Source: a virus
Virus record (IMG/VR): IMGVR_UViG_3300025120_000350
Location: 1 to 29,328 of that record
Reading direction: 5' to 3' (one strand)
Length of the DNA stretch: 29,328 bases
Below are positions 19,153-20,823 of the stretch, piece by piece. The position numbers and the translations under genes were made by a program. Position 1 is the stretch's first letter. The number at the start of each line of letters is the position of its first letter. The notes under the pieces were generated by a model. That model saw nothing but the letters and a program-made list of their open reading frames with translations, searched no databases and was not told the origin of the DNA.

Positions 19153-19527
19153 TCAGCCTAGATCAATGGACACCTTGATATCCCCAGCCACCTGAACCTG
19201 TGAACGATCAATAGGCTTATACCCAGCACGATCCAACAAATCCTTACTAGCCTCAAGCTGAACGTACTCAGACTTAGCACTCGTAGCCAACCTACGCACT
19301 GTACCAGCAGCCAAAGTAGCACTCAATCCAAACTCATCATTCATCCGCTGCATCAAGTACTGCTGCACATGTGGCAACTTCATCGTCTTAGTTGCAGTTA
19401 CTCTTCCAGATTCACCCTTAGCATATCCAGCCAGATCTGCTGCTTGTGCTATCGTACAACCTTTTGCTACAATCGTGTCTACTAACGCCGTCTGTTTATC
19501 AGTCAGCTTCCTGTTTGCTGGAACCAT
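19153..19527 (-). CDS. Terminase small subunit (probable)
   Basis: 124 residues. The N-terminus LTDKQTALVDTIVAKGCTIAQAADLAGYAKGESGRVTATKTMKLPHVQQYLMQRM is the standard helix-turn-helix of small terminase subunits ('LT.KQ..Fv......G....AA..AGY' pattern), followed by a helical oligomerisation region and a C-terminus with DRSQVQVAGDIKVSIDLG, similar to other TerS tails that contact the large subunit. It would bind the packaging site. The start has a GGGGTG ribosome binding site close to ATG. It is the first gene of the leftward late block. Confidence 0.85.
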   Translation of the reverse strand: MVPANRKLTDKQTALVDTIVAKGCTIAQAADLAGYAKGESGRVTATKTMKLPHVQQYLMQRMNDEFGLSATLAAGTVRRLATSAKSEYVQLEASKDLLDRAGYKPIDRSQVQVAGDIKVSIDLG

Positions 19528-19589
19528 GTCACCCCTGTTTTCTAAGCTTAGTCATTATTAAAACATCTATCGTATGTCTCATTCGCTAG

Positions 19590-19612
19590 CCCCCCTCTCC
19601 CTCTCTCCCCCC
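19590..19612. repeat. 23-nt polypyrimidine mirror-like tract
   Basis: An uninterrupted C/T run: C6, TCT, C3, TCTCT, C6. It is nearly mirror-symmetric. On the minus-strand leader RNA it is a purine run with G6, G3 and G6 blocks. Such tracts can form triplex DNA or two-layer quadruplexes. It lies between the candidate late promoter and the terminase small subunit gene. Confidence 0.7.
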
Positions 19613-19643
19613 ATTACGACACCATTTCTTATAGAGCTGTCAA
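19613..19643 (-). promoter_or_regulatory. Candidate late promoter for the leftward block
   Basis: Read on the minus strand there is a perfect TTGACA -35 box (19643-19638) and, 19 nt later, CGTAAT (19618-19613), a 4/6 match to a -10 box. The spacing is long and the -10 is weak, so activation by a protein bound at the adjoining palindrome is plausible. No phage RNA polymerase gene is in the window, so host-polymerase use is a reasonable guess. Confidence 0.45.
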
Positions 19644-19663
19644 TAGTGACGTAACGTAACTAT
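19643..19663. promoter_or_regulatory. Near-perfect 21-bp palindrome (ATAGTnACGT half-sites)
   Basis: Two ATAGTnACGT half-sites face each other around a central A; only one base pair (positions 6 and 16) breaks the symmetry. The left end shares one base with the -35 box of the candidate late promoter. Seventeen bases of it recur exactly at 21507-21523. An extra inverted 8-bp copy of part of it, TACGTCAC, lies at 19675-19682. This is the form of a dimeric regulator's operator. Confidence 0.7.
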
Positions 19664-19818
19664 CCTTATTACCCTACGTCACACCTGATTATTACAGTTG
19701 ACACCATTTGGGCGATGGCCGCGCTACTCATGAACAGAGCCTAAAGTCTCTGCCTTTCAGGTGAGTATCGTTCCCTCCTTCGTCGGCTATCGCAAGGTAA
19801 AAGGTAGCTGGCTGTTAA

Positions 19819-19873
19819 CCAATGGCTTACACCATTGGGCCATCAAGTAGGGGGAATCTTGCCCGATTCCCCC
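19819..19873 (+). repeat. Two tandem perfect hairpins
   Basis: The first has a 7-bp stem CCAATGG/CCATTGG with a 6-nt loop (19819-19838). The second has a 9-bp stem GGGGGAATC/GATTCCCCC with a 6-nt loop (19850-19873). Only 11 nt separate them. The second is followed by AGCTATACG rather than a T-run, so neither is a standard terminator in the plus direction. Confidence 0.75.
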
Positions 19874-19934
19874 AGCTATACGCTTCCCCCATATGGCTAA
19901 AGTAAGAAGCAGAAAAAGACTAATAAAAAGAATT

Positions 19935-20057
19935 TGGACCAACTCCGAAGCTCGCGTCTGGCCCCCACCGTCATGGAACAGCCAGAACCTGCAGTCAAGA
20001 CGGACGTGGTTGCGTCTTGACTCCAGAACCATGGCAATTCCCTGTCGGAGTTGTCCA
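19935..20057 (+). ncRNA. Candidate structured RNA or cruciform, about 123 nt
   Basis: The two ends pair over 13 bp with a single bulged C (TGGAC-C-AACTCCGA with TCGGAGTTGTCCA). Inside are two further perfect helices: 6 bp (TCTGGC at 19957-19962 with GCCAGA at 19981-19986) and 10 bp (AGTCAAGACG at 19993-20002 with CGTCTTGACT at 20013-20022), giving a three-way-junction-like layout. Downstream is a GC-rich stretch with GGTTCAAAT, which resembles a T-arm but has no matching tRNA stem. It lies 70 nt before the first early gene. It could be a leader RNA, a small RNA, or an origin cruciform; no known family was recognised. Confidence 0.55.
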
Positions 20058-20127
20058 GCCCCTCACTTCGGGCCGGTTCAAATTACGAGAAACACACAAA
20101 AGTTAACGCTTAAAATGGAGAACTAAA

Positions 20128-20823
20128 ATGACTGCTTATGAAATCGCTACAAAAAACCACACAAAAGCCGAATTGATTGCAATGGTTGAACGCGCAAACG
20201 GTCTAGCTATAGACGCGGAAAAAGACTTCCAACACACAAAGAACCAACTAAATAGCTTGCGCGTTGATGCAAACCCCGCAGCCGATGCCAACAAAACCCG
20301 CACTAATCAAACCGACCCAGTAACGGATTTCTTAAACCACATCACGACAGATGAAACGCTATACCGCGACCGCCAGTTTACAGTAACAGACACTTGCCAA
20401 TTTGACCGCCGCGTTATTGTTGAGGCCATCATTGATAAGCTCTATTGGCTGAAGACATCCCGCAAGGGCCATGACGCCTACGCCATGAGCACCAAGGAAC
20501 GCGCAGAGTATGCAATGCGCCGCAACGATGGCACCGAGATCGGACTAACGCAGCTAAAAGCGGCAGTCTCAGAGGCACGCGCAGCGCAAAGCAAGCTCGC
20601 ATTGTTTGATCGCATGCAAGACCAGTTGCGCGGTTACTACGCTGAAACCTTTGGCAAGTCTTACATTGCCTACGGAGAAAACGAGGGCAACGTACCAATA
20701 AATCAGCAGCCACAAGCCATCCCCGCTGACATCGCGGCAGACATGGCGGCGCTTGGCATCACACCGCCCGCCGATCAGACGGCCAACACAAACGGCGTTG
20801 AGACAATCGCAGATGTTGCATAG
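20128..20823 (+). CDS. First early gene, unknown function
   Basis: 231 residues with TGGAGAAC just upstream of ATG. The N-terminal 50 residues are a charged helix (AELIAMVERANGLAIDAEKDFQHTKNQLNSL), the middle contains QFTVTDTCQFDRRVIVEAIIDKLYWLKTSRKGHDAYAMSTKERAEYAMRRNDG in shorter blocks, and the C-terminus is Ala/Pro/Thr-rich and probably disordered. No catalytic motif is recognised. Its base composition is clearly richer in G+C than the following early genes, suggesting different ancestry or a selected sequence. As the first gene of the early block it is a candidate host-takeover or regulatory protein; this is positional inference. Confidence 0.78.
   Translation: MTAYEIATKNHTKAELIAMVERANGLAIDAEKDFQHTKNQLNSLRVDANPAADANKTRTNQTDPVTDFLNHITTDETLYRDRQFTVTDTCQFDRRVIVEAIIDKLYWLKTSRKGHDAYAMSTKERAEYAMRRNDGTEIGLTQLKAAVSEARAAQSKLALFDRMQDQLRGYYAETFGKSYIAYGENEGNVPINQQPQAIPADIAADMAALGITPPADQTANTNGVETIADVA

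Follow-up and report, generated by a model that had tools for sequence, protein, structure and literature searches.

The window, by which we mean the whole stretch of DNA analysed (IMGVR_UViG_3300025120_000350, positions 1 to 29,328; a virus record of 29.3 kb), is divided by a divergent early/late intergenic region at 19528-20127. Late genes lie on the minus strand and encode the terminase, head-tail adaptor, major head, tail and internal virion proteins, with terS (19153-19527, minus strand) belonging to this group. Early genes run on the plus strand from 20128 and include a RecE-like exonuclease, a RusA-like resolvase and an SSB-like protein. The first of them (20128-20823) encodes a protein of 231 aa for which a PHROG search returned no match, and its ribosome-binding site, GGAGAAC, is located at 20117-20123. 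Judged by capsid, the nearest cultured relative is Pelagibacter phage EXVC031P Hodr, at 51%.

At 19638-19703, TGACGTNRCGT palindromes lie between two TTGACA boxes that face outward, an arrangement that is retained across the family and that contains an inverted repeat (19646-19659/19669-19682). From its sequence, this stretch resembles a promoter region from which early and late genes diverge under a common operator. The outward-facing box at 19698-19703, after which a standard-type -10 box is absent, suggests that plus-strand transcription may pass through the element described below. A C/T tract, CCCCCCTCTCCCTCTCTCCCCCC, occupies 19590-19612, just upstream of terS, and is identical in more than 130 of the 340 loci fetched. 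Two contigs ending at this tract run into poly-G, the breaks falling there and not at the structured element; because poly-G is seen at both contig ends, sequencing failure fits better than a genome end at the tract, an idea that we rejected. Sequencing and assembly may also fail at this tract.

Within the same intergenic region, the sequence-only reading had proposed a structured element at 19935-20057, composed of three helices around a junction. Pairing in this stretch is indeed beyond chance, its folding beating dinucleotide shuffles on both strands (plus z -3.6, 1/200; minus z -3.8, 0/200). However, the element is longer, covering about 19927-20089, and its architecture is that of one long rod of about 160 bases (163 nt), which runs from a closing helix that covaries, through an internal core conserved in sequence, to an exchangeable tip. 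Delimited by covariation in eight sequences and by a covariance model, the rod is provisionally drawn here on the minus strand as the better-folding one. The model scores the window element at 200.6 bits and identifies it as a single copy, no second copy elsewhere in the window being convincing (next match 16 bits).

The rod is closed by helix P0, in which 19931-19940 (AATTTGGACC) pairs with 20075-20084 (GGTTCAAATT). Given this pairing, the string GGTTCAAAT, once likened to a T-arm, is the 3' strand of P0. Next comes P0', formed by CCGAAG (19945-19950) and CTTCGG (20066-20071), and then a core helix of CTGG (19958-19961) with CCAG (20055-20058) in the sequence-conserved internal region; being invariant in 13 sequences, this helix is neutral as to pairing. 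The middle helices (19968-19984 with 20032-20048) have 96% of cells paired and no double changes. The tip, of the version that we call A, pairs 19989-20002 with 20013-20026 around a loop (20003-20012) with conserved GACGTRGTTG. It contains the perfect 10-bp helix reported earlier, AGTCAAGACG/CGTCTTGACT, which reaches 14 positions with one mismatch, and the repeated CCAGAACC is likewise present at 19982-19989 and 20023-20030.

The fold is kept while the letters change across relatives, which marks it as a real structured element. Across eight version-A sequences, 95% of the cells of the full rod are paired and seven pairs have changed on both sides, compared with a shuffled mean of 2.1 and a count of seven in none of 500 shuffles; these sequences, like the other related sequences in our comparisons, share ancestry and are not independent. 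Slid control versions of the rod lose the covariation signal. The tip helix alone shows four pairs with changes on both sides and 92% of cells paired. MAFFT places P0 one base off in some rows, so we aligned this helix manually; at its positions 2-8, 80 of 81 cells are paired with several double changes, the forms seen including AATTTG/CAAATT, ATATTGA/TCAATAT, GTTTTG/CAAAAC and GAATTG/CAATTC. Between relatives, P0' switches from CCGAAG/CTTCGG to the CCAAGG/CCTTGG pairing found in L314. On this comparative sequence evidence, the element at 19927-20089 is held by selection on base pairing, and it is probably an undescribed RNA. The earlier proposal of a riboregulator or small-RNA-type element is thus backed by compensatory changes, which, in the covariation check across homologous phages, exceed those of shuffled columns.

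The closing helix of the sequence-only reading, a 13-bp pairing with one bulge between 19935-19948 and 20045-20057 (TGGAC/GTCCA plus AACTCCGA/TCGGAGTT), is present in the letters, but covariation supports 19931-19940/20075-20084 in its place. Although 90% paired, it has a sole informative pair, at which 4 of 13 sequences show a mismatch, and 33 of 500 shuffles equal its covariation score; given the mismatches and the shuffle ties, we treat this weakly backed helix as a possible alternative conformation. It and P0/P0' are mutually exclusive, using the same 5' strand. Folded as RNA, 19927-20089 has an optimum (z -3.8, 0/200 shuffles) closed by 19931-19940/20075-20084 and CCGAAG/CTTCGG. RNA energies, on the plus strand, give the covarying fold as the window optimum, whereas DNA energies give the earlier fold instead.

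Two accessory hairpins precede the rod, and compensatory changes are seen in both. H1 (19819-19838) pairs CCAATGG with CCATTGG in the window and CCGATGG with CCATCGG in aligned relatives, and H2 (19850-19873) pairs GGGGGAATC with GATTCCCCC in the window and GGGGGAACA with TGTTCCCCC in relatives; H2 is retained in L310, L320 and L322. At 19850-19890, GGGGGAA is able to pair with either of two copies of TTCCCCC, which form a direct repeat (19864-19874 and 19881-19891), and by sequence the leader can thus form another two pairings that exclude each other.

The view that the stretch is RNA rather than protein is supported. Open frames are present in the window (19893-20126 on the plus strand, 19787-20032 on the minus strand), and either might be read as a small protein gene. 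The plus frame, whose conservation as protein would have spoken for coding, is refuted by indels or stops that end it early or shift it in all eight relatives translated, and the minus frame is broken by single-base indels between relatives; we regard a protein gene as vanishingly improbable. ARAGORN finds neither a tRNA nor a tmRNA gene, in agreement with the earlier remark that no tRNA cloverleaf can be built. The Rfam search suggested for the element yielded no family: none reached its gathering threshold in the window with Rfam 15, none was found in eight relative loci at E up to 1, and the best matches within 19500-20200 were chance-level eukaryotic families. Hence, we file the element under no family. 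The sequence-only reading had located a real non-coding element with the wrong limits and, probably, on the wrong strand.

Relatives were gathered by their first early protein, capsid and terminase together with DNA patterns, giving more than 300 loci. The outer shell of the window element is present in at least 12 further distinct phages, in which the hairpin tip is swapped between two versions. Version A, that of the window, occurs in L008, L316, L317, L319, L320, L321 and L322; version B, CAGTTCGCAA..TTGCGAACTGCAAGC, in L006, L286, L290, L310 and L314, with a one-base variant in L318. Many other relatives also carry the version-B tip, within a leader type that otherwise differs; L006 and L119 have this tip in common, with a hairpin differing by one base. 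The version-B pattern is present as one copy each in all 39 contigs carrying it, and lies between terS and the first gene in a single orientation wherever these genes are scorable. The window-type element is followed by first genes of at least two groups between which no similarity was detectable, and it is therefore not tied to one coding sequence. In L098 (at 370-471 from the terS start), and at the same place in L154 and L028, a version-B-type hairpin has a loop expanded to about 80 nt, which in some relatives can be read as a short hydrophobic peptide with similar PFLALxIV stretches.

The element is restricted to phages, namely a group of marine podophages. The tip-B pattern has no match in 84,980 prokaryote genomes, and a 19-base pattern has 15 matches in bacteria against roughly 9 expected by chance (257 Gb, our own arithmetic), none of which fits the covariance model; no convincing copy of the element was present in the 84,980 genomes. 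DNA similar to it was not found in phage GenBank records, nor did our literature searches find a description of it.

The other leader type differs in its relation to the first gene, to which its rod often extends. It contains complements of 8-11 nt to the ribosome-binding region, mostly about 175-285 nt upstream, that are individually significant in 11 of 63 cases. Complements of the start codon and next two bases lie beside these in 13 of 40 leaders, some of the 13 being close relatives, as against 0.8 expected, and matched changes (ATGGC/GCCAT and ATGTC/GACAT) are observed. Predicted pairing of the ribosome-binding site is 0.84 in this type versus 0.69 in shuffles, and 0.42 versus 0.54 in the leader type of the window. 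Sequestration of the site was rejected for the window itself, where the longest complement is 6 nt, no better than in shuffles, and where the element is not predicted to hold the site. The covariance model of the window element does not match the other leader type; common descent of the two shells is accordingly unsupported.

The sequence-only reading had assumed the plus strand from the early gene downstream, but this is the worse-folding strand: 19927-20089 has z -6.2 on the minus strand versus -3.8 on the plus strand. When each strand is compared with its own shuffles, minus is the better-folded one in all 14 window-type members, with z values of about -6.7 and -5.2 (minus) versus -4.1 and -2.8 (plus), and in 11 of 15 members of the other leader type; six coding controls show no such trend. 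Helices predicted on both strands contain single mismatches of A.C type in 25 unique contexts and of G.T type in 6, where shuffles lead one to expect 22 and 18, most of these contexts deriving from the other leader type. As A.C on the plus strand corresponds to a G-U wobble on the minus strand, the bias points to the minus strand; strand-biased mutation could mimic it, and a stricter count of mismatches and wobbles leaves few independent events and no clear strand bias. The conserved internal loop GAACC..GAACC, which belongs to the repeat mentioned above, becomes a mostly wobble-paired helix on the minus strand, and one G-U in P0 of the window clade pairs only on the plus strand. A U-run follows the closing helix on the minus strand only in the clade of the window. 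Together, the folding and mismatch evidence from sequence supports, without proving, the minus strand as that of the RNA.

We tentatively favor a structured RNA of the antisense type, made from the minus strand and acting on the early leader, and place the probability of this reading at about 0.38. With the minus strand folding best, the most likely molecule is a minus-strand noncoding RNA of about 160 nt. Such an RNA would be transcribed across the early operon's 5' leader in the antisense direction and would pair with the complementary mRNA leader, itself presumably folded into mirror-image hairpins; pairing would lower early gene expression, as CopA does on CopT, with the tip hairpin carrying the specificity. 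The main weakness of the minus-strand antisense reading is that there is no recognizable minus-strand promoter: a consensus scan found no promoter-like site at 20090-20200, and none near the right end was convincing. A plus-strand leader would be just as compatible with the position and the fixed orientation ahead of the early genes. This chief rival, an RNA of the early operon's 5' leader that acts in cis during transcription or translation, is possible, though we consider it rather unlikely. It might block termination by host RNA polymerase in the manner of HK022 put, or use exclusive pairings to hide or stabilize the message. In all scorable contigs the element has a fixed orientation and lies at a fixed distance from the first early gene, the plus-strand RNA optimum is the covarying fold, and the same 5' strand serves two exclusive pairings; moreover, the rod of the other leader type pairs the ribosome-binding site, and the start codon with codon 2, and put RNAs are situated downstream of early promoters (PMC9378689). 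Against such a leader are the better minus-strand folding in 14 of 14 members, the opposing mismatch bias and the free ribosome-binding site of the window; we also found no intrinsic terminator or attenuator in the plus-strand leader, and rejected that candidate.

That the element acts as DNA, through a hairpin on single-stranded or extruded DNA recognized on the bottom strand during replication, packaging or recombination, seems to us clearly improbable. It adjoins terS and the very conserved C/T tract, and many helix mismatches are other than wobble pairs. In DNA, A.C mismatches are less well tolerated than G.T, and a bottom-strand hairpin would accordingly fit the minus-strand bias as well. 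Yet the fold from DNA energies is only weakly backed by covariation, nearby contigs break at the C/T tract with poly-G artefacts and not at the element, and the GC-skew check proposed earlier for replication reveals no clean switch at the element beyond the change of gene direction; for a cruciform or origin we found no positive evidence. A structured RNA acting in trans on another target, such as RNA polymerase (6S-like) or a host or defence protein, would account for a rod with a sequence-conserved core between covarying helices and for the phage-only distribution. However, Rfam models of 6S and every other family lack a match, which leaves rod and core as a likeness only, and the element always adjoins early genes, a placement that suggests a local role; we give this explanation a slender chance. 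It is tempting to extend the favored antisense reading to a phage-specific RNA family, a covarying rod with a conserved core and exchangeable tips in which a tip swap would reset which early messages are recognized, but this is a long shot. If true, it would represent RNA-based specificity of immunity or timing in marine phages known mainly from metagenomes.

Known systems offer partial parallels. CopA and CopT of plasmid R1 are an antisense RNA and its leader target, whose loops and stems can vary between replicons. By analogy, the window element may be a folded RNA antisense to a leader with mirror-image hairpins, its antisense (minus) strand being the one that forms the stable structure (z -6.2 versus -3.8; 14/14 members); unlike CopA, it would concern a phage early operon and not plasmid replication, and there is no sequence link. 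HK022 put RNA is about 70 nt long, has two stem-loops and binds the beta' zinc-binding domain of RNA polymerase; such RNAs are found downstream of early promoters, in the case of putR about 270 nt from its start (PMC9378689). The likeness is that of a structured RNA in a phage early-operon leader, put acting without a phage protein (PMC9378689), and the differences are the 160-nt rod in place of two stem-loops of about 70 nt and the opposite best strand. The c4 antisense RNA is Rfam RF01695 (PMC2864571); like the proposed RNA, it is a phage regulatory antisense RNA from a leader region, but its fold is different and it has no Rfam match in the window. The element is new and without a database family, though its general kind, phage regulatory RNA, is already known. 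Dozens of marine phage contigs carry a structured leader of this kind ahead of their first early gene, and such leaders have no counterpart in Rfam. Should it prove to be an antisense or leader RNA, it would constitute a new RNA family with clear covariation and bring early-gene control at the RNA level to a phage group known mainly from metagenomes.

In the leader of the MS2 maturation gene, the ribosome-binding site is held by long-range pairing. The other leader type resembles it in that a long-range helix is predicted to hide both the start codon and the ribosome-binding site; the window shows no such hiding, and its phage is a DNA phage. Similar complements were noted elsewhere. In L105, L010, L118 and L129, the terS ribosome-binding region has a perfect complement of 9-12 nt about 80 nt upstream, which varies in step between relatives and is absent from the window. 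Likewise, in L169, the distant cultured relative EXVC031P Hodr, TCCTCCTTTGG precedes the first early gene, about 170 nt upstream, as a perfect 11-nt complement of its ribosome-binding site.
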